Assembly (NCBI GenBank): GCA_019637955.1
Contig: JAHBUS010000004.1
Coordinates: 186,001-250,000 of the forward strand
Length of the DNA stretch: 64,000 bases
Reading direction: 5' to 3'
DNA from: Pseudobdellovibrionaceae bacterium
GTDB taxonomy: Bacteria > Bdellovibrionota > Bdellovibrionia > Bdellovibrionales > Bdellovibrionaceae
Positions 3,764-24,449 of the stretch are shown one piece after another. A program made the position numbers and the translations under genes. Under the pieces are notes generated by a model. It was not told the DNA's origin. It was given only the letters and a program-made list of their open reading frames with translations, and did no database searches. Within the stretch, counting starts at the first letter, position 1; every line of letters begins with the position of its first letter.

Positions 3764-5977
3764 GTGTTAAATCGCTCCATGCCCTACAACTTCCTGCGCA
3801 CGCAAATCGGCAATCTCAATCGCAGCCTCTTTCTCGCCATGCTCTTCAGCGTGGGCCTCGTCCTTGCCTGCTCCCTTTTGTTCGTTTACCAGACGTCGGC
3901 ACAGAAGCAAAACAGCCAAGACCGCGGGCAGGCTCAAGAAATGATCAAGACCTTGCAGCGCGTGCTCATCGCGCTAGTGGACGCCGAGACCGCACAACGT
4001 GGTTATGAAATCGCCAAGGACGTGCGCTTTCTAGAACCCTACTACCGCTCAGCCGGTCTCATCGACAAAGAAATCGACTCCATTCACGAGCTGGCAAAGA
4101 AAATGCGCACCGAGCGCGGCGAGAATCGCATCACCGACGAGCAGATCGACGATCTCTCGGCGCGCAAAAAAGAACTCTTCGCGATCTTCGAATCCTCCGT
4201 GCAGAACTCGGGCGGAAAATGGTCCCGCACCGAAGCTCTGGAGGCTAAACGCAAGATGGATGAAACTCGAGACTTGATCGGCGAGCTTTTGGACCGCTCG
4301 TTGGCACACCTCGAAGACAACGACAAGCGCATGGTGCTCGGGTACTCGCGCATGTCGATCGTCGCGATCATCACCGTGCTCTTCTCTTTTGCGTCTTTGG
4401 TCGGTTCCGTCATGTTCCTGTCGCAAGGTCTCGAAAAACAGAAGGCTCGCGCGATGAGCTACTTTGAGTCCGCCTCGAAAGCCGAAGAGGCCTCCGACTT
4501 GAAGTCGGCCTTTTTGGCCAATATGAGCCACGAAATCCGAACTCCCATGAACGGCATCATCGGCGTGATCGACTTGCTCCGCTCAACCCGGTTGGACGAC
4601 GAGCAGCGCTCTTATGTCGAAATCGTTCGCGATTCCTCAAACACGATGCTCGCCCTTTTGAACAACATTCTCGATCTTTCAAAAATCGAGGCGGGAAAAT
4701 TCCACCTCGAAAAAGTCAGCTTCGAACTTCCCTCGTTGGTGCGATCGGTGGTGAGCGTTTTCCGTTACCAAGCGATCGAAAAGGGCCTGCGCCTGGATTT
4801 GCTGGTCGCCGATAGCGTTCCACACCACTTGATGGGCGACCCCCTTCGTCTCCGGCAAGTTCTGACCAACCTGATCGGAAACGCCTTGAAGTTCACGTCG
4901 GAAGGACTCGTCGCGATCCGCATTCAGGTCGTGAGCCAGGAGAGTGAGCTGTACAACGTCCGCTTCGAAGTCGAAGACACCGGCGAAGGCGTTTCGCCTC
5001 AGGACCAGGAGCGTCTTTTCCAACCCTTCACCCAGGCCGACCTTGCGACGTTTCGCAAATTTGGAGGTTCGGGGTTGGGTCTGGCCATTTGCAAACAGGT
5101 CGTCGAGATGATGAACGGGCAGATCGGCGTCATCAGCACTCCGCAAAAAGGATCGACCTTTTGGTTTGAAATTCCCATGATCAAATCGCAGGTCGAACCG
5201 GCCGAGATGGTCGACACCGAGGACCACCTCGTCCGCGACTTCCAGCGGGCCCATAAAATTCTCGTGGTCGAAGACAACGCCGTGAACAGCAAGGTTTTCG
5301 CGGGCATGCTCGAGAAAATGAACCTCCCTTACCGCATTGCCGAGAACGGGGCCGTGGGCGTCGAACTCTTCCGGCGCGAGCATTTCGATCTCGTCCTCAT
5401 GGACTGCAATATGCCCGTCATGGACGGTTACGAAGCTACCCGCCAGATTCGCGGCCTCCACGGCGCCCGAGGACTCACCCCGATCATCGCGATCACCGCC
5501 AACGTCATGCGCGGCGACCGCGAGAAGTGCATTCAGTCCGGCATGAACGATGTCATTTCCAAACCGGTCCCCTTCCCGGAGTTGCAGGCCAAGTTGTTTC
5601 AGTATTTGGTCCAGAACGATCTTCCGGCCCAAGTCAAAGCGGCCCTAGAAGTTCTGCAAAAGCTTGAGACCTCGTCGAATCCCACCTTCGTCGCACAACT
5701 GGTCCGAATTTTTGTGAAGGACACGCCGGTGACGATTGCTGAGGCCAAGCAAGCTTTGGCCAGGGGCGACTTCCCCGCTCTCGAAAGGGCCGCGCACTCA
5801 CTCAAGTCGAGTTTCGCGAATTTCGGCGCGAAAGTGGGCTCGCAAAAGGCGTTGGAGGTCGAGAAACTCGCGAAATCCTCGCAGGCCGCAGGCTCCGAAT
5901 CGCAGCTTCTGCAAATCGAAAGCGAGTTCGAAAAAGTTTCGCGCGTCCTGCTGCAGCTTATTCCGGGAGCGGAATAA
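3764..5977 (+). CDS. CHASE3 hybrid sensor histidine kinase with receiver and HPt domains
   Basis: A 737-residue inner-membrane sensor. Order: a membrane helix (about 20-42), a CHASE3-like periplasmic helical domain (about 45-190, with the family phrase ETAQRGYEI), a second membrane helix (about 195-215), HisKA with His256 in [15 protein letters not shown], a HATPase_c domain (N box [10 protein letters not shown]1 DTGEG, G2 GGSGLGLAI), a receiver domain with phospho-acceptor Asp547 ([15 protein letters not shown]), and a C-terminal HPt domain with His678 ([14 protein letters not shown]). All four phosphorelay residues are present, so it can run a full internal relay to an unlinked response regulator. 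I prefer the GTG at 3764, preceded by AGGA, over the ATG at 3779. Confidence 0.93.
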
Positions 5978-6827
5978 ATTCCGTCTCGTGCGGGACCGGA
6001 GCAAACTTCCGGTCCTTCCAGTCCTGCTTGGCTTTCTGAATTTTTTCTTTCGAACTCGAAACAAAATTCCACTCGATAAAACGCTCTTCCGGAAACGGTT
6101 GGCCGCCAAAAAGAACGGCGTGCGCCCCCGCCTCGAGATCCAATCGGATCTGGGCGCCGGGTTCAAAAATGATCAGCTCATGTCCGGGAGTTTCTTGCTT
6201 CTGATCCGCCGTCACGCGCACCCGGCCCTCCAGAACGATGAGCCCAAGGGCCTGATCACCCGAATCAAACTCAAAGTGCCCGCCCTTGGCGGACCGTAAA
6301 TTCATGAACACCAGCTTCGAATGCACCTGAACCGGCGAGCGCCGGCCGCGCGCCTCCCCGGCGATGAGCGTGACTTCGACGTCGCCCTCGGTCCATGTCG
6401 GAATGGCGGATTTGGCGTGATGAAAGAACTCCGGCGCCATGTCCTCTTTGTCTTTGGGAAGGGCGACCCAGAATTGCAGCATGTGCTGAGCGCGCTCGGT
6501 GGGGGCTTGCCCGTCGGGCGTACGCTCCGAGTGCACGATCCCACGCCCCGCGGTCATCCAATTGACATCGCCAGGTTTGAGCACCAGCTCATTGCCGAGA
6601 CTGTCACGGTGATAAGCCTGTCCTTTGAAAAGATACGACAACGTCGAAAGACCGATGTGGGGATGTGGGCGCACGTTCAACCCTTCGGCAGGTCCCTCGC
6701 TCGGCGGCAGGTAGTCCAAAAAAACGAAGGGCCCCACCGCGCGTTTTTTCATAAACGGCAGATAGCGAAAGATCGGGTGGCCGTCGATCGAGATCGTTCG
6801 CGGTTCAATTTTCATTTCGATGCCCAT
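5958..6827 (-). CDS. Pirin family protein
   Basis: A 289-residue bicupin. The N-terminal cupin has the pirin metal-site motifs: [14 protein letters not shown] gives the first two histidines, and [15 protein letters not shown] gives the third histidine and the glutamate. The second cupin (from about residue 180) is the usual degenerate half. Bacterial pirins bind iron or other divalent metals; reported roles include quercetin dioxygenase activity and modulation of metabolic enzymes. The start ATG at 6827 has GGAGGG just upstream. Its last 20 bases overlap the convergent histidine kinase gene. The upstream reductase gene overlaps the start by 16 bases, so the two form an operon. Confidence 0.92.
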
Positions 6828-7471
6828 GCACCCTCCAACATTTTTTTGTTCGAGATCAATTCGACCTTTGCCGTCTGATGAAAAAGGGCTGCGACCGCGG
6901 TTTCGGCCACGCGCTTCGCTTCGATGGGCCGCCCCGCCTTGAGCGGACCAACCAAAAGTGATTGGACCAAGGGCGCAAGGGTGATCGCGAGTTTTTCCAC
7001 GAAACGAGACTCTTGGCGTTCTCCCAAGAGAAGACTCGGTTGCAAGATCACCAAACTTTCAAAACCGATCTGCTTCAGATCGCGCTCGGCCGCGCCTTTC
7101 ACCTGGTTGTAGAAAAATCGTGAGTCGGCATCGGCTCCCATGGCCGAGACCAAGACGAATTTGCGGACACCCAACTCACGGCAGCGAGCCGCGAAACGCA
7201 AGACAAAATCGTGATCGATTTGAAAGAAGGCCTGTTGCGAACCGGCTTTGCGGATCGTGGATCCCAGAGCGCAAATCGCGGCATCGAGCGGCGCACCGCC
7301 GTCCGCGGCGAAAGACGAAAAATCCGTCTGCACGAATCGCAGTTTCGGACTTGATGCGCAGGAGGCGCGTCGTCCGTAAGAACGAATCGACTCAACGCGA
7401 GACTCTTGCTGCAAAATTTCGGCGCACGCACCACCGACCAACCCCGTCGCTCCCGCCAAACCGACTTTCAT
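6812..7471 (-). CDS. NAD(P)-binding atypical SDR (NmrA/HTATIP2-like)
   Basis: A 219-residue Rossmann-fold protein. The dinucleotide loop is at the very start (VGLAGATGLVG, Gly-x-x-Gly-x-x-Gly). The segment VRKFVLVSAMGADADSRFFYNQVKGAAE corresponds to the SxxxA...YxxxK region of the HTATIP2/TIP30-like subgroup, with Tyr and Lys of the catalytic pair kept. Such proteins bind NAD(P) and are often reductases or regulatory sensors. An open frame runs upstream to 8194, but that part is antisense to the PAP2 gene. The ATG at 7471 has an excellent GGAGGT 8 bases upstream. It is operonic with pirin. Confidence 0.8.
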   Translation of the reverse strand: MKVGLAGATGLVGGACAEILQQESRVESIRSYGRRASCASSPKLRFVQTDFSSFAADGGAPLDAAICALGSTIRKAGSQQAFFQIDHDFVLRFAARCRELGVRKFVLVSAMGADADSRFFYNQVKGAAERDLKQIGFESLVILQPSLLLGERQESRFVEKLAITLAPLVQSLLVGPLKAGRPIEAKRVAETAVAALFHQTAKVELISNKKMLEGAWASK

Positions 7472-16520: not shown

Positions 16521-16640
16521 CTGCACGTAGGCTAGCCGTCTCCCCGAACGAACACCACGCTTGTCTCGGCATGGCGGTGTCGGATTTTTTTGACATGTCC
16601 GAGTTTGACCCACCGAGCGAGATTCAGCACATTGGGAAGG

Positions 16641-17579
16641 ATGACCAAGATTTCAAATGAGCCTGTTCACACCCTGCACTTGATCGCCAACCCCAAATCC
16701 GGAAAAGGGTTGGGCGCGGCCCTTCCCGATCTGGCCCGGCGCCTCTGCCAAGAGCGCGGGGTTAAATTTATCCTGCATGAAATTTCAGAGCCGGGCTCCC
16801 TCGACGAAAAAGGCGAGACCGCACTGAAGCAGGCCACGAAAGATGGCGGGATCGTGGTGGCCGCGGGCGGTGACGGCACGATCCGCTCGGTGGCGGCGAA
16901 GCTTCGCGGCCAAGATGTTCGATTCGGCGTGATTCCCATCGGCACCTTTAATTTCTTCGCGCGCAACCATCGAATTCCCGAAGACCCCGAGGCGGCTCTC
17001 CAGATCGCGCTGGACGGGCGGTCAAAAGCCGTTCGGCTGGGCGAAATCAATGGTCACATCTTTTTAATCAACGCGAGCTTAGGTCTCTATGCCAAAGCGA
17101 TTCGCGACCGCGAACACCGCACCAGCCGTTGGGGCCGCAACCGGATCATCGTGATCATCTCGACGATCATCAGCCTCATCGAAGGCCACCGGTCGCTCAA
17201 AGTTGATTTGGTCAGCGACACAGTTGCCAAATCCATCGCCACCCCCATGATTTTCATCGGGAACAACGCGCTCCAGTTGCGAAATCTCTCGCTCGATGTG
17301 GCCCATTGCATGAAAAAGGATCTCTTGGCCGTCGTCACCATGAAACCGCTGACGACTTGGGGCACCCTCAAGCTGATCTTCATGGGCATGGCCCGTTCGC
17401 TCGAGAAGCAGGAAGGGCTCGACAGCTTTTGTGTCGAAACCCTGACGATCAAAACGCGCAAGAAAACCCAAGTCGTTGCCCTTGATGGTGAGATGTTCAA
17501 AATGAATTCTCCGCTCGTCGTGACCGCCCAACCGGAAATTCTCAACCTGATCGTGCCGCCACCTGAGGAGACGGCATGA
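16641..17579 (+). CDS. Diacylglycerol/sphingosine kinase-like lipid kinase (YegS/DagK family)
   Basis: A 312-residue protein of the DAGK_cat family. The start of the fold is LHLIANPKSGKG, and the nucleotide/catalytic motif is VVAAGGDGTIRSVA near residue 76. Then come GVIPIGTFNFFARN, the beta-sandwich domain around INASLGLYAKAI, and the conserved VVALDGEMF near the C-terminus. Such cytosolic enzymes phosphorylate diacylglycerol or related lipids using ATP. I choose the ATG at 16641, just before the family sequence; GGAAGG lies immediately upstream at tight spacing. Its stop overlaps the start of the phosphoesterase gene by 4 bases, so the two are translationally coupled. Confidence 0.85.
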   Translation: MTKISNEPVHTLHLIANPKSGKGLGAALPDLARRLCQERGVKFILHEISEPGSLDEKGETALKQATKDGGIVVAAGGDGTIRSVAAKLRGQDVRFGVIPIGTFNFFARNHRIPEDPEAALQIALDGRSKAVRLGEINGHIFLINASLGLYAKAIRDREHRTSRWGRNRIIVIISTIISLIEGHRSLKVDLVSDTVAKSIATPMIFIGNNALQLRNLSLDVAHCMKKDLLAVVTMKPLTTWGTLKLIFMGMARSLEKQEGLDSFCVETLTIKTRKKTQVVALDGEMFKMNSPLVVTAQPEILNLIVPPPEETA

Positions 17580-18400
17580 AGGTGAGAGTCGCGCACATCT
17601 CCGATCCTCACTTCGGGACGGTTGAGCCCGATGTGCGCGCGGCCCTGCTCCAGTCGCTAAAATCCCTCGCACCCAGCGCGATCGTCGTGACCGGCGACAT
17701 CACTCAGCGCGCCCGTCTCCGTCAATTTCGAGACGCCCGCCGGTTCTTTCGCGAACTTGAGCCCATCCCCGTTCTTGTGGTTCCCGGCAACCACGACATT
17801 CCGCTCTTCAATATTTTCGGCCGTCTTTTGCATCCTTATTTTGGCTACCGACGCATCCTCAAAGGGCATCTTAAAAAGCGCCTACCCCTTGAAGGCGTCG
17901 AGATCTTTGGCTTGGCCTCCACGCGGCGCTACCGCCACGTGCAAGGCGAAATCGACTTGCGCGCGATGAAAAAGTTTCTTTCAAAGCATCCCGACAGGGC
18001 GCCGGTGCGGATCGTCGGCCTTCACCACCCGCTCGACTGCCCGAAACGCGTGGATGAGAAGAACATCCTCCGCGGAGCCGATGGCATGATGGCGGCCTTG
18101 TCGAATCAACAGGTGGATCTGGTGCTTGGCGGTCATATCCATGACCCTCTCGTTTCGCTCTCTAGCGCCCGTTATCCCGGCATCGAGAAACCCTTGATCA
18201 TCTCTGTCGCCGGGACCTGCCTGTCTTGGCGAACCCGCGCTGATGCGCCCAACTCCTTCCATCTGATCGACATCCTCCCCACGGGAGAGACTCCGCAAAT
18301 CCAAATCCAGCGGCTCGACTACATCGATCGGGTTTCCTTTGAGAGCATCGAGTGTCATCAGTTTGTCCGCCAACCTGGAATCGGCTGGAACCGAGTTTAA
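17576..18400 (+). CDS. Calcineurin-like metallophosphoesterase
   Basis: A 274-residue protein with the whole set of metallophosphoesterase motifs: Asp10/His12 (AHISDPHFG), Asp41 (VVTGDIT), Asn72-His73 (VPGNHDIP), the His pair in GLHHPLD, and GGHIHDP. These bind two metal ions and hydrolyse phosphate mono- or diesters, for example cyclic nucleotides, nucleotide-lipids such as UDP-diacylglucosamine, or phosphodiester lipids. The overlap with the lipid kinase gene (ATGA at 17576-17579) suggests a joint role in lipid or nucleotide-lipid turnover, which is inference. No signal peptide is seen, so it is cytosolic. Confidence 0.88.
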   Translation: MKVRVAHISDPHFGTVEPDVRAALLQSLKSLAPSAIVVTGDITQRARLRQFRDARRFFRELEPIPVLVVPGNHDIPLFNIFGRLLHPYFGYRRILKGHLKKRLPLEGVEIFGLASTRRYRHVQGEIDLRAMKKFLSKHPDRAPVRIVGLHHPLDCPKRVDEKNILRGADGMMAALSNQQVDLVLGGHIHDPLVSLSSARYPGIEKPLIISVAGTCLSWRTRADAPNSFHLIDILPTGETPQIQIQRLDYIDRVSFESIECHQFVRQPGIGWNRV

Positions 18401-18640: not shown

Positions 18641-20434
18641 ATGAAATTGAAGCGTGCATTCAATCTCGCCCTCGTGCTTTTGATCTGCTCGTCGGCGTCC
18701 ATCGCGCAAAGCCCGCGTATCGAAACCGTTGAAGACTACAACAAGCTCCTGCCTCACTGGGGCGTTAGCTGGTCTCCCGGTGCGAAATCGATCAACGGTT
18801 ACCACCAGACCTTCTACACCGGCTTCGCGATGCGCAGCGAATCTCCCGAGCGCATCCACGTTCGCACCTCGCGCGGCAATCAAACCCGCGTGTCGGTCAT
18901 CCTCGACGAACAGACCGTTGGCGATTATCTCTTCGATCTCGCCAAGCGCTATTCGTTCTATAAAAAGATGACCACGGGTTCAAAACCCCAATTGGATATC
19001 AACCCGGCCAACTCGAAAGCTCTCCCCCAGCTCGCTTACTACAATCAGATCCTCGAGTCGCCCCGTTACGGAATTCTCGAGTACGTTGAGCGCGCAAACC
19101 AAGGCCGCGAAAGCCAAGAAGCGGTTTATAAAAAATCGCTCGAAACGCTGACGGCTTTGAATCCTGGCCGCGTGTTCCCCTTGCGCTTCGATCTGCGCGC
19201 CGAGTTCACGAAATGGAAAACGGAGATGCGCACGCTCACGGGTGGCGATGCCAGCCGCGTGATGAGTTCGCCCGCCGCCGTCGTGACCGCGATCAACGGT
19301 CTTGTTTTCGGCCGCGTGAACTACACCGAGAAGCCCTCGGCTCAAGTTTTGGCTCAGTTGCAAACGGCTTTGAACGCCGCTCTCCAAAATGCTCCGGACG
19401 AAGTTTTCGTTCCCGCGGCTCTTGAGCTGTTCAAATCGGTGACCGGTTCGAAATACCAAATCAAAGTTCTGAATGCTCAAGGTCAATTCGAGCCCGCACT
19501 CAAATGCGCAGGCACGGCTTGTACGCTGACTTATACCGAGTTCACGACCATCTACCCCACCGGTTCGATGGAAGCGACGACTTCGGATGAGTACGGCAAC
19601 CGCATCAACTCGTTCGCGACTCCCGGCCTCTGGCAGTTCCTGTCTCGCGGCGGCAAACACGATATCGACAACATCCGCAACGAACCCTACTACGGTTGGG
19701 CTCCGAAAATGGATTTCGAAGCGATCGGCAACGGCTTCCACAACCCTGCGGTTCGCTTCTGGGATCCCAGCAAAGCGCTGAAAACAGCTTTGGGCATCAA
19801 TCCCGGCCACAACACCCTGTGGGCGGTTAAGCGTGGCGGCGTCTCGCACGGCTGCTTGCGCGTTCCCCTCGGCCACTTGTGGGAAATGCGTCAGATCTTC
19901 CCCGTCGAGAACGAAAAAGCGACGAAGATCATGTTCTTCGGTAACAACTCGCAAGATTTCGACGTCTACGACATCAACGGTGACGGACAACTCGAAGTCA
20001 TGGGCGTTCAATACCTGATCTCTTACGGCCTTCAAGGTGCCGACGGTCTGGCTCGCCGTGAAGGTTCGGGCTTTGAAGTCAACGAAGGCCGCAAGCTCGA
20101 TTTCTACACAAACCTGTACGGAGCTCGTAACGTCTTCCGCGTTGAGAACAACGGTGTTTACACGTTCCAATCTCCCCGCATCTCGTTCCCCTCGTACCTG
20201 GATCTGAAGCGCAAAGGCGTCACGGCACGTCCTAAACTTCAAGGCGACTACCCCTTGTACGAACAGGCTTACGAAAAAGACAAAGTTCAGTTCTACGCCG
20301 TCGGCGACATGAACGAGACCAACAAGCGCGTCGTTCGCCTCATGGGCCGAATCAAAGGCTGCGCTCCCACTTCGAACAAACAAGAGTGCGGTGAAGCCGC
20401 GTTCGACCAAGAAGCGAAAGGACTCGTTCGATGA
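18641..20434 (+). CDS. Exported YkuD-type L,D-transpeptidase-like protein
   Basis: A 597-residue protein with a signal peptide (LALVLLICSSASIAQ). Residues about 300-420 contain the L,D-transpeptidase signature: GVSHGCLRVP with the nucleophile Cys405 and SHGC at 402-405, and upstream histidines at 367 and 390 as candidates for the catalytic His. L,D-transpeptidases form or exchange 3-3 crosslinks in peptidoglycan, or attach proteins to it. The N-terminal 300 residues (DYNKLLPHWGVSWSPGAK, FRTLTGGD) match nothing I know. A segment near residue 445, DINGDGQLEV, looks like an EF-hand calcium loop. The start has AGGAAGG. It overlaps the next gene by 4 bases and is the first of three exported proteins. 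Confidence 0.75.
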   Translation: MKLKRAFNLALVLLICSSASIAQSPRIETVEDYNKLLPHWGVSWSPGAKSINGYHQTFYTGFAMRSESPERIHVRTSRGNQTRVSVILDEQTVGDYLFDLAKRYSFYKKMTTGSKPQLDINPANSKALPQLAYYNQILESPRYGILEYVERANQGRESQEAVYKKSLETLTALNPGRVFPLRFDLRAEFTKWKTEMRTLTGGDASRVMSSPAAVVTAINGLVFGRVNYTEKPSAQVLAQLQTALNAALQNAPDEVFVPAALELFKSVTGSKYQIKVLNAQGQFEPALKCAGTACTLTYTEFTTIYPTGSMEATTSDEYGNRINSFATPGLWQFLSRGGKHDIDNIRNEPYYGWAPKMDFEAIGNGFHNPAVRFWDPSKALKTALGINPGHNTLWAVKRGGVSHGCLRVPLGHLWEMRQIFPVENEKATKIMFFGNNSQDFDVYDINGDGQLEVMGVQYLISYGLQGADGLARREGSGFEVNEGRKLDFYTNLYGARNVFRVENNGVYTFQSPRISFPSYLDLKRKGVTARPKLQGDYPLYEQAYEKDKVQFYAVGDMNETNKRVVRLMGRIKGCAPTSNKQECGEAAFDQEAKGLVR

Positions 20435-21801
20435 AATCCTTGATCACGCTGGCCCTCGGCCTTGTTTTGTCGGTCGCCGCGCAGGCGGACCTCAAAGCTT
20501 CATTCAAGAAAATGGACTCGAACCGCAAGGGTCCCTTCACGGTGAACTACTTGCAAGGATCGCGCAGCCGCGTGATCGTGACGGACGGCTCGGCTTCGGG
20601 AACGTTCCAGTTCCAAGCCGCGTTCCGTAACGAAATCGGTCAAGAGCTCGCGACCCAGTACGACTTCTACGTCGCGAACCTCTTTACCACCAACTATTAC
20701 GAGTTGATGGGCGAGTACGTTTACGGCGACGCTTACAGCAGCCACGACATCGACCACAATGCGATGCTCGCCGCCGCTCCTCGCGCCGCTAAGAAAGCCG
20801 GCTCGATGGTCCGTCACTGGGTTCTCGAGAAACATTATGTTCAGAACTTTCCGAACACCAAAATCGCGCAGGCTTTTAAGCTGCGCGGAATCGGCGGATC
20901 CGAGTTCGAACAGGCTTACGCTCCTTATTTCTTTAACTTTTACATGACCACGTTGACCGAAGACTTCCAGTTCTTGCCGGTTTACTTGCTCGCCAAGAGC
21001 AGCCCGATCGCCGCCTCGAATTCGCTCGAGCGCGCCCGGGTGGTCGTGAATCAGATCTACGAAGGTCTGCTGGCCAGATTCGGCCAAGACCAAACGGTCG
21101 TTCGCCGCATGTACCAAATCCGCAACGTGATTCACAATCAGCTCTCGCAAGAGGTTGTTGCGCAAATCGACAGCTTCCACCGTGAGTTCCCCTGGTACCG
21201 GCAAGAAAGCTCGGATCTGGATGAAGTTCGCAGCATCGTCGTGGCTTACTACAGCGTCAGCGCCAAGAAAGTCTCGGAATTCGCGAAGAAAATTGGCGCC
21301 AACGATATCGTGGCGCAAGCCGATGCCATGGCTAAAAATGGCTCTTCACCCGACAGCATCTTGGCTCTTTCGAGCATGATCGCCAACCTGCGCACGGCGG
21401 TTGCGACCAGCGCGGTTCCGGCGGCTCAAAAATCGGACGCCCTGCTCGTGATCTTGACGGCCAATCAGTATCTCAACAAAGAGATCCTGAACATGTCGTC
21501 GGTTTCATCGAAGAGCGTGATCAAAGCCATCGTGAACCTGATCTACGTCGAAGGCTTCCTGATCAAAGACAACTGGCAGTACTTCACCGGTGAAGTTGAT
21601 AGCGCCGCCGACGTGGTGGCCGCGGGTGCCTTGTTCGCCGATATCGCCGATATCGCGAATGACACTCTCGCGCAGGCTTTCAACCCTTCGCTCGGTCAGT
21701 GGCTCTCGGTTGAGCCCAAAATGCAGTATTTCGTTGATAATACGATCAAATCATCGGCCCTTAACACCGCTTCCGTTATCGGAAAGAAAATTAAGAAGTA
21801 G
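20431..21801 (+). CDS. Exported protein of unknown function
   Basis: A 456-residue protein with a signal peptide (SLITLALGLVLSVAAQADL, cut after AQA). After an N-terminal beta-rich stretch (FTVNYLQGSRSRVIVTDG) the rest looks almost fully alpha-helical (LERARVVVNQIYEGLLARFG, VAQADAMAKNG, VIKAIVNLIYVEGFLI). A segment SSHDIDHNAM near residue 109 has clustered His and Asp that could bind metal. I do not recognise the family. It is tightly coupled: its start overlaps the YkuD-like gene (ATGA), and the dikinase-like gene begins 6 bases after its stop. A role as partner or substrate adaptor of those two periplasmic proteins is inference. Confidence 0.75.
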   Translation: MKSLITLALGLVLSVAAQADLKASFKKMDSNRKGPFTVNYLQGSRSRVIVTDGSASGTFQFQAAFRNEIGQELATQYDFYVANLFTTNYYELMGEYVYGDAYSSHDIDHNAMLAAAPRAAKKAGSMVRHWVLEKHYVQNFPNTKIAQAFKLRGIGGSEFEQAYAPYFFNFYMTTLTEDFQFLPVYLLAKSSPIAASNSLERARVVVNQIYEGLLARFGQDQTVVRRMYQIRNVIHNQLSQEVVAQIDSFHREFPWYRQESSDLDEVRSIVVAYYSVSAKKVSEFAKKIGANDIVAQADAMAKNGSSPDSILALSSMIANLRTAVATSAVPAAQKSDALLVILTANQYLNKEILNMSSVSSKSVIKAIVNLIYVEGFLIKDNWQYFTGEVDSAADVVAAGALFADIADIANDTLAQAFNPSLGQWLSVEPKMQYFVDNTIKSSALNTASVIGKKIKK

Positions 21802-21807
21802 GACTCT

Positions 21808-23355
21808 ATGAAACAAATCTTAGCTTCCCTCGCGATTCTCGTTTTTTCGCAGCTCGCCTTGGCGCAAGCCAAAGTCATGAACCCCGGCGAAGCCGTGGGT
21901 CAGTTGGTGATGCTCTCGGCGACCGACGTCACCACCGAGACTCCCAAGTACAAATCCTTGAGCCCGCTCTCGATCCCCTTGTTCGCGGAACTTCCGCTGG
22001 ACATGTCGGTCGTAGCCGGCGCGATCACATTGAAACAGCAAACGCTGCTCTCGCACGTTCAGCTGAAATCACGTGCCCGCAAAACGCCGAATCTCGACAT
22101 TTCGGCCCTCGAAGGCGGCGCGCAAAATCCCTTGCTCGCTCCTTTTAAAGACGGCGATTGGGTTCACATGATTCTGGGGGCCGACGGTTCGATCTCGATC
22201 AAGCCCTCAACCGAAGCTGAAGCAACGGCTTACTACCAAAGCAAGCGCACGGAGCCCGTTCAACTCGAGTCGGATGTTCGCGAATCGCGCATCCGCCCTC
22301 ACGCCGAACTTGGTTCGCCTGACTTCATCACCGTTGGATCAAAAGCCGCTAACTACGCAGAAATGGCGCGTGTTTTGAATACCGCTGATCGCACGGTTGT
22401 CCGCACCGGATACGGAATTCCGTTCTACTATTACGAAGAGTTTATCAATTCGAATCCCAAGATCAAATCGATGATCGATTCGATCCTGCGTGATCCGCTC
22501 ATGAATAAAGTCGCGAAAGTGTCGTACCGAGAAGCGAAACTCAAAGCCCTCCAAGAGGCCATGCTGAGCCCAGAAGCCGCCGTTAACGAGAAGCTCGTGG
22601 ATGAACTCATCGGCTACTTCGAGACCTTCCGTTCGAAAGGCCTGCCCCGCAACATGAAACTGCGCAGCTCGACAAACTCGGAAGATCTTCCGAATTTCAA
22701 TGGCGCCGGTCTTTACTCGTCGGAATCTTACAAGCCCGCGAAAAAGGGCAAAGAAAAAGACATGGCCAAAAAACGTGAGAGCCTCAAAGAAGCCCTCAAA
22801 ACCGTTTGGGCTTCGGTTTGGAATCTCCGCGCTTACGACGAGCGCAACTACTTCCAAATTCCCCACGCTCAAGTGAAAATGGGCATGCAAGTGAACCCCT
22901 CGTTCGGCGACGAAGGCGCGGACGGCGTGGTCGTGACCAAGAACGTTTCGAAAGATCCCCGCTTCCCGCAAGCCGGCGTCTACATCGAAGTTCACCGCGG
23001 GAGCGAGTACAGCGTGACCAATCCCGTTCCCGGAATCAAACCCGAGAAAATCTTGGTTCTCTTCAACGAATCCAATCCTCTCGACACGTCGGCGTACCAA
23101 ATTCAAGTTTTGCAGCGCTCGAACGTGGCTGATGACACGCGCACGATTCTTCCCACCGACAACCCGAATCCCGTGTTGACCGATGCGGAAATCAAAGATC
23201 TCACCTACCAAGTGATGAAAACGCACGTGCACATGCACAAAGTTTTGGATCCGAAAAACCCGAATTTCTCGCTCGATCTCGAGTTCAAAATCGATTCTGA
23301 GGACACCGGTTCACGTCAAGTTTATGTGAAACAAGCCCGGCCTTACATCGACTAA
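21808..23355 (+). CDS. Exported PEP-synthase/glucan-dikinase-like protein (swivel domain plus PPDK_N ATP-grasp)
   Basis: A 515-residue protein with a clear signal peptide (ILASLAILVFSQLALAQAK). Residues about 60-105 resemble the phosphohistidine swivel domain (TLLSHVQLKSRARKTPNLD, candidate His83). Residues 170-515 match the PPDK N-terminal ATP-grasp domain: VGSKAANYAEM, LRSSTNSEDLPNFNGAGLYS (Arg286, Glu292), VWASVWNLRAYDERNY, LDLEF (Asp490, Glu492) and VKQARPYID (Gln509, Arg511). The residues that bind ATP in PPDK and glucan water dikinase are all kept. Such enzymes normally act in the cytosol, so export is striking. The PEP-binding TIM barrel is absent. Substrate and phosphate donor are unknown. 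Confidence 0.75.
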   Translation: MKQILASLAILVFSQLALAQAKVMNPGEAVGQLVMLSATDVTTETPKYKSLSPLSIPLFAELPLDMSVVAGAITLKQQTLLSHVQLKSRARKTPNLDISALEGGAQNPLLAPFKDGDWVHMILGADGSISIKPSTEAEATAYYQSKRTEPVQLESDVRESRIRPHAELGSPDFITVGSKAANYAEMARVLNTADRTVVRTGYGIPFYYYEEFINSNPKIKSMIDSILRDPLMNKVAKVSYREAKLKALQEAMLSPEAAVNEKLVDELIGYFETFRSKGLPRNMKLRSSTNSEDLPNFNGAGLYSSESYKPAKKGKEKDMAKKRESLKEALKTVWASVWNLRAYDERNYFQIPHAQVKMGMQVNPSFGDEGADGVVVTKNVSKDPRFPQAGVYIEVHRGSEYSVTNPVPGIKPEKILVLFNESNPLDTSAYQIQVLQRSNVADDTRTILPTDNPNPVLTDAEIKDLTYQVMKTHVHMHKVLDPKNPNFSLDLEFKIDSEDTGSRQVYVKQARPYID

Positions 23356-23388: not shown

Positions 23389-23425
23389 AGGCCTGCCCAT
23401 TGTCTGGGCAGGCCTTGTTGCTTTT
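23389..23425 (+). terminator. Rho-independent terminator of the exported dikinase operon
   Basis: An 11-bp perfect stem, 23389-23399 (AGGCCTGCCCA) with 23405-23415 (TGGGCAGGCCT), a 5-base loop and a T-rich tail (TTGTTGCTTTT). Confidence 0.85.
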
Positions 23426-23501: not shown

Positions 23502-24449
23502 ATGACTCGAACCACCGTTGTTCGCAATGGCATGGCCGCGCTTTGCCTTTTGTTCGTCGCCCAGACCTCATGGTCGGCGATGCCCACCAACCCCGTTTCG
23601 GACCGTGAATTCACGATCCTTCCCAATGGAAAAGACCTCAGAACCATCAGCGTGAGCGGCGAGCGTCTTTCGCTTTCGCGCGGAACCGGACAGACCTTCG
23701 GCTCGTCGGCGAAAGCCGCCTATCAAAAACTAAAAGCGGATTCGAAAGCAGATCCCAATCACAAAGTTCACTGGGTCTTGATGGACCTGGACGGCGGCCG
23801 CGTGCTCGATCAAAGCGCCAATGCCGACAAACGCCTTTTCGGGGCTTCGTCGTCGAAGATCTTCGTGGGCGCGGGTCTTTTGGACAAACAAGCCGGCGCG
23901 CTCTCGAGTTCGCAGCTGCAACTGATGTCGGACATGCTGGTCGTGTCGTCGAACACCGCTTGGACGAATCTGCAGAGCCAAGTCGGTGATGGCAACTCGG
24001 ACAAGGGACGCGAACGCGTTTACGGATTCACTCAGCGAATGGGTTACGAACAAACGCGAGGTTTTCAAGGGTACTGGGGCAGCATGCACGGCAACGAGCT
24101 CACCGCGATGGAGACCGCCGAATTTCTGCACGACACGTACATGGGGAACTACCCGGGCGCCGAGACCCTGTGGAAACTCATGCACGCCTGCCGCACCGGC
24201 GCGAGCCGGGGCCGCAAGTACATGCCCTCCTCTCTCTACGTGGGCGGCAAGACGGGCACCTACGACGGTTCAACCGAGAATCCCGAGACCGGCAAGAACT
24301 ACAACGTGGCCATTCGCAACCACGTGTTGATCTTCAACGTCTTGGGCCGTCAGTACGGTCTGGTTGTTTTGGCCAACACCGGCTCCGACGAATCGGCGGC
24401 GCTGCTCGCGGGTGGACTGCTGCGTGAGTACACCGGATTTGCAGATTGA
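23502..24449 (+). CDS. Exported serine hydrolase (class A beta-lactamase / penicillin-binding fold)
   Basis: A 315-residue protein with a signal peptide (ALCLLFVAQTSWSA). Three active-site motifs of the beta-lactamase/transpeptidase superfamily are visible: Ser-x-x-Lys in GASSSKIFV, Ser-x-Asn in VVSSNTAW, and Lys-Thr-Gly in VGGKTGTYDGS. The class A omega-loop Glu is not obvious, so an actual beta-lactamase is less likely than a wall-directed carboxypeptidase or esterase. It acts in the periplasm or outside. The start has GGAGG and lies downstream of the terminator at 23389, so it is a separate unit from the YkuD/dikinase operon. Both, however, point to peptidoglycan metabolism. Confidence 0.8.
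   Translation: MTRTTVVRNGMAALCLLFVAQTSWSAMPTNPVSDREFTILPNGKDLRTISVSGERLSLSRGTGQTFGSSAKAAYQKLKADSKADPNHKVHWVLMDLDGGRVLDQSANADKRLFGASSSKIFVGAGLLDKQAGALSSSQLQLMSDMLVVSSNTAWTNLQSQVGDGNSDKGRERVYGFTQRMGYEQTRGFQGYWGSMHGNELTAMETAEFLHDTYMGNYPGAETLWKLMHACRTGASRGRKYMPSSLYVGGKTGTYDGSTENPETGKNYNVAIRNHVLIFNVLGRQYGLVVLANTGSDESAALLAGGLLREYTGFAD

Follow-up and report, generated by a model that had tools for sequence, protein, structure and literature searches.

In glucan, water dikinases, the phosphohistidine domain lies N-terminal to the PPDK_N ATP-grasp domain, and to our knowledge all known dikinases of this superfamily work where ATP is made. Excerpts of the HpeHI report give the canonical swivel loop before the phosphohistidine as a glycine-rich T/SxxGGxxxH motif (PMC12167813), and excerpts of the rifampin phosphotransferase report state that Lys22 and Arg117 of that enzyme are needed for resistance (PMC4844700). 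Prey-wall L,D-transpeptidases of Bdellovibrio, Bd0886 and Bd1176, are named in the excerpted text of a further report (PMC12546842). Here we analyzed a locus in a 64,000-nucleotide stretch of DNA (the window) from a Pseudobdellovibrionaceae bacterium, whose genome assembly comprises 3.77 Mb in 14 contigs. The cluster is surprising in that an ATP-using phosphate-transfer enzyme, normally intracellular, appears to be exported together with a cell-wall-type enzyme in relatives of Bdellovibrio. The first-pass annotation of this DNA considered the combination undescribed, and we found no description of it in the open-access literature searched, nor a relevant one of an exported PPDK_N protein or of Bdellovibrio with a dikinase.

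The locus contains three open reading frames on the + strand: LDT (18641-20434, 597 aa), with the ribosome-binding site AGGAAGG; MID (20431-21801, 456 aa); and PPDK (21808-23355, 515 aa). The tight gene coupling reported earlier is present, with LDT and MID overlapping by 4 bases (ATGA) and a spacing of 6 bases between MID and PPDK. A strong terminator had also been proposed at the end of the operon. A terminator-like hairpin is indeed located 3′ of PPDK (23389-23415, + strand), with an 11-pair stem containing 8 GC pairs and then a T-rich tail, TGTTGCTTTT, and it is the best terminator-like hairpin of the region. Its strength, however, depends on this single stem, and the total of terminator-like sites (13 observed, compared with 10.0 in shuffles, sd 2.7) is not above that of the shuffles. 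Of the neighboring genes, those for a diacylglycerol-kinase-like protein and a phosphoesterase on the upstream side (16590-18400) do not accompany the operon in relatives; the downstream gene BLA (23502-24449, + strand) does. BLA with its export signal was absent from the first-pass annotation, as were the N-terminal phosphohistidine domain of PPDK and the MID-PPDK fusions described below. Judging from sequence, we read the locus as encoding a putative exported, split, glucan-dikinase-like phosphotransferase alongside wall-peptide enzymes.

LDT, MID, and PPDK are each predicted to carry a Sec signal peptide at the N-terminus. The signal scan was a crude one, with a charged n-region, an uncharged hydrophobic core, and an A-x-A or lipobox as criteria. 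It was passed by PPDK in 11/11 cases, MID in 10/11, fused MID-PPDK in 4/5, and nearly all LDT proteins, and by none of five cytosolic controls (the three PPDK/PEPS-type proteins of the genome and the two upstream enzymes). As to its limits, BLA signals pass in only some members of the set, and overall the scan is passed by 8 of the 61 open reading frames of the window. The strongest argument for export of MID and PPDK is that the fused MID-PPDK has a single N-terminal signal, while the split proteins have one signal each. The scan and the conservation in homologues agree with the earlier proposal of signal peptides on all three products, and the homologues encoded in the operon retain their signals by the same scan.

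The full LDT family is found in 15 of 369 Bdellovibrionota genomes. At the level of the order (141 genomes), the ten genomes with LDT are also the ten with MID. LDT, MID, and PPDK are adjacent in 14 of the 15 Bdellovibrionota genomes with LDT and in one Desulfobacterales MAG, counting two genomes (G302 and G211) in which a contig end truncates LDT. In G049, LDT stops at a contig edge, and MID-PPDK is on another contig amid other genes. The dispersal of the genes in relatives that was suggested as evidence against the operon is thus not what we observe. MID is fused to the N-terminus of PPDK in five genomes (G048, G077, G196, G211, and G369). Pairwise distances are correlated between LDT and MID (0.93), LDT and PPDK (0.94), and MID and PPDK (0.985), and between BLA and the others (0.81-0.88), all of these values including a contribution of shared species ancestry. 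Taken together, the export signals, the clustering, the fusion, and the conserved catalytic residues indicate that the module is real, conserved, and, as predicted, exported. The module is patchy, and almost every listed genome of genus g4, which belongs to the same family, also lacks it; it therefore does not appear to be a core predation gene.

The Desulfobacterales-labelled MAG (G369, L083:4071-9342) has a reversed gene order, with the MID-PPDK fusion upstream of LDT, and its LDT is 38% identical to that of the window. There is no other LDT in its class among 290 further genomes (291 searched), which points to an isolated transfer or a binning error.

The description of the third protein as glucan-dikinase-like is supported by a Pfam match to PPDK_N (E 5e-20) over residues 175-512 of PPDK (22330-23343, + strand). 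This ATP-grasp domain matches PEP synthase and rifampin phosphotransferase in the PDB, and Foldseek with a model of the fused MID-PPDK from L085 (mean pLDDT 80) retrieves rifampin phosphotransferase, HpeI, and PEP synthase with values of 1e-9 to 1e-6. Ahead of it, residues 22-168 (21871-22311, + strand) form a phosphohistidine-like domain containing His83. When this region was compared by hhalign with the swivel domains of the genome's own PPDK/PEPS proteins, P was 1.5e-4 with His aligned on His, compared with P 0.5 for MID as a control. The window PPDK has no match to GWD1_pHisD (PF22973). In relatives, sub-threshold matches ahead of PPDK_N are found to PF00391 (E 3e-4 in L083 and 0.05 in L077) and, weakly, to the GWD1 phosphohistidine model (0.02-0.15 in L074, L169, L171, and L181), the latter reaching at most 14.8 bits in the relatives scanned against a curated cut-off of 27. 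Residues H83, K179, R286, D490, E492, Q509, and R511 are invariant in 15/15 sequences, down to 23% identity and, for H83, including fusions and distant members; K179 and R286 are the apparent equivalents of rifampin phosphotransferase Lys22 and Arg117. The PPDK chain stops at residue 515, immediately past PPDK_N, and no PEP/pyruvate-binding domain is found by Pfam. These features indicate that PPDK is not just an ATP-binding fragment, with a predicted divergent phosphohistidine domain ahead of the ATP-grasp domain in the glucan, water dikinase order. Its residues would allow dikinase-like function, and we place it outside the GWD family.

The T/SxxGGxxxH swivel loop is not conserved in PPDK; the window has ITLKQQTLLSH, and the GG is absent in relatives. 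The missing GG, along with Pfam phosphohistidine models that match only below threshold, would fit a PPDK that is catalytically dead or altered, with a degraded phosphohistidine loop, and a MID-PPDK pair that partners LDT in a structural or regulatory role. We consider this distinctly unlikely, as H83 and five ATP-grasp residues (K179, R286, E492, Q509, and R511) are kept invariant down to the most divergent sequences, and distant exported relatives weakly match the GWD1 phosphohistidine model at the same place. The intact ATP-grasp residues would also be compatible with an exported nucleotide-binding or salvage device, in which PPDK and MID hydrolyze or capture extracellular, prey-derived ATP to yield AMP and phosphate that the cell takes up, the wall enzymes being merely co-regulated. 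Pfam matches no glucan-binding domain in either MID or the PPDK N-terminus, and the lack of a recognized acceptor-binding domain speaks for such a device. It is nevertheless unlikely, because a swivel His that is invariant in 15/15 would be needless for a simple hydrolase, and because the stable partners of PPDK are wall-type enzymes, not transporters.

MID is a predicted exported, Cys-free, all-helical protein. The first-pass annotation left the second protein without a family, and MID has no Pfam match and no PDB relative by sequence search. The AlphaFold2 (AF2) model of MID is helical, with block pLDDT mostly 75-95, and gave no structural match in Foldseek; no MID relatives were found outside the module. 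In the fusions, MID precedes the phosphohistidine domain, the place that an acceptor module would occupy in GWD, and MID is therefore probably the acceptor-binding part of the pair it forms with PPDK.

LDT is a divergent YkuD-type, L,D-transpeptidase-like protein. The YkuD-type active site noted earlier is supported: the SHGCLRVP motif begins at residue 402, and H367, S402, G404, and C405 are invariant in 12/12 aligned sequences. Pfam gives no direct YkuD (PF03734) match on the window LDT, a PDB sequence search gave nothing credible, and comparing its profile directly with other YkuD proteins of the genome was uninformative. The catalytic half of LDT is poorly modeled by AF2, and the model yields no PDB match, so that we argue the YkuD assignment from profiles and motifs. 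A profile links LDT to distant homologues (E 1.8e-16), in which FHG...SHGC aligns with H367 and C405, and one of which, L130, passes the PF03734 cut-off (24.9 bits vs 23.4). The profile search also retrieves a wider set of Bdellovibrionota proteins at E of about 1e-7 to 1e-14 that retains F/YHG...SHGC or SHSC. The retained motifs, the profile link, and the YkuD pass suggest that His367 and Cys405 are likely the catalytic pair. His390 was also considered as the catalytic His and was ruled out, as it is not conserved whereas His367 is.

The middle His of SHGC is Arg in two solo paralogues and Ser in one operon copy, with the Cys retained. The solo paralogues (L063:5542-7311:+ and L060:259-2082:-), which have SRGC in place of SHGC, are away from MID-PPDK and have similar neighbors in two genera. 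A wider Bdellovibrionota YkuD-like family (L130-L138) is marked by FHGPIxN...RGYVSHGC and, after it, a DxxDWDxDG-like stretch; the members scanned have a weak Pfam match or none.

Some L,D-transpeptidases attach proteins to the wall. LDT may accordingly be pictured as an anchoring transpeptidase that forms a covalent link between peptidoglycan and MID and/or PPDK, with PPDK as a wall-bound sensor or binding protein and not a kinase, and the co-encoding and co-inheritance of LDT, MID, and PPDK would suit this picture. We find it improbable, since the kinase residues of PPDK are invariant, which would be unnecessary in a protein that merely binds while anchored.

The fourth gene, BLA, encodes a serine beta-lactamase/D,D-peptidase-fold protein (Pfam Beta-lactamase2, E 1e-8) with a predicted N-terminal export signal. 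Its motifs S116xxK119, S149xN151, and K250TG are invariant in 9/9. BLA adjoins the module in 10 of the 11 unfused genomes (seven with BLA downstream in the same orientation, two with a divergent arrangement, and one with a convergent one), and is not present near MID-PPDK of G049 or near the fused type. As L,D-transpeptidases and serine peptidases are commonly found among wall enzymes, and as there are six other YkuD matches in the genome, the exported proteins might serve ordinary upkeep of the cell's own wall, with no link to polymer phosphorylation or prey. This would leave the exported dikinase-like protein of the same operon unexplained, and we regard it as highly improbable.

We instead favor, tentatively and with slightly less than even confidence, a conserved exported envelope-modification module, in which PPDK is the engine, MID its partner, and LDT and BLA edit wall peptides, and which would phosphorylate an extracytoplasmic polymer or glycan. 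PPDK would be a two-domain dikinase engine with a phosphohistidine swivel and an ATP-grasp domain, and MID would be separate or fused according to lineage. ATP would phosphorylate His83, and the swivel domain would then bring the phosphate to a MID-bound acceptor. The extracytoplasmic polymer or glycan would thus be phosphorylated while LDT (Cys405/His367) and BLA (active-site serine) edit peptidoglycan peptide stems of the same wall in the same compartment. This scheme supposes catalytic activity, acceptor binding by MID, a wall polymer as the acceptor, and ATP available outside the cytoplasm, which lysing or invaded prey, for one, might supply. The fuller claim, that an extracytoplasmic ATP-dependent dikinase phosphorylates wall glycan or peptide, own or prey, in coupling to L,D-transpeptidation and with ATP from outside the cytoplasm, seems doubtful to us. 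ATP is not normally present outside the cytoplasm, which counts against the favored scheme, as do the missing Gly-Gly of the swivel, the lack of a recognized acceptor-binding domain, the patchy distribution, and the poor LDT model. A conserved exported dikinase-like protein in a wall-enzyme operon, fused in some lineages to a second exported protein, suggests either that ATP drives chemistry outside the cytoplasm or that the fold has a new use other than as a kinase.

PPDK-like proteins with the same domain order fall into two groups in the phylum, one exported and one without a signal peptide. The exported group has several other N-terminal parts across Bdellovibrionota, which makes the question general and testable. 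PPDK_N proteins with likely export signals and differing N- or C-terminal modules are found at L070, L071, L074-L076, L169-L172, L181, L182, and L188, with a clear lipobox at L075. The homologues without a signal peptide are encoded outside the operon, and the existence of this cytosolic group suggests that export is tied to some branches and not to the architecture as such. The cytosolic phosphohistidine and ATP-grasp protein of about 670 aa (L173-L179, L186) adjoins an MFS transporter in several Bdellovibrionota genomes, for example at L176:3819-5825:+ and 5822-7024:+, and the two are possibly a small-molecule kinase/transporter pair.

Compared with known systems, BLA shares SxxK, SxN, and KTG with the class A beta-lactamase/D,D-peptidase fold (PF13354), but scores far below the equivalog cut-off for class A beta-lactamases. 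LDT has the H...SHGC active site of YkuD L,D-transpeptidases (PF03734), and its distant homologue exceeds the Pfam cut-off; it differs in having no direct Pfam match, about 300 extra N-terminal residues, and HN in place of HG following the catalytic His. Bd0886 and Bd1176 are of the same enzyme class and bacterial group as LDT, a likeness by class alone, and the excerpted text does not mention a dikinase link (PMC12546842). PEP synthase/PPDK enzymes differ from the window PPDK in their C-terminal PEP/pyruvate-binding domain. Rifampin phosphotransferase and HpeHI are the best PDB match for the ATP-grasp fold, and the HpeHI two-component dikinases, like MID and PPDK, have their parts on separate polypeptides (PMC12167813); as their excerpted reports describe them, they differ in domain order and swivel loop and act on small molecules, and export is not mentioned in those excerpts (PMC4844700, PMC12167813). 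Unlike GWD, PPDK is bacterial and predicted to be exported, has no recognized starch-binding domain and no match above the curated cut-off, and has MID standing in place of the GWD N-terminus. Its closest likeness in layout is nevertheless to the C-terminal half of the glucan, water dikinases (GWD/PWD), in which the phosphohistidine domain also comes before PPDK_N with no PEP/pyruvate domain, consistent with the weak matches of its relatives to GWD1_pHisD.
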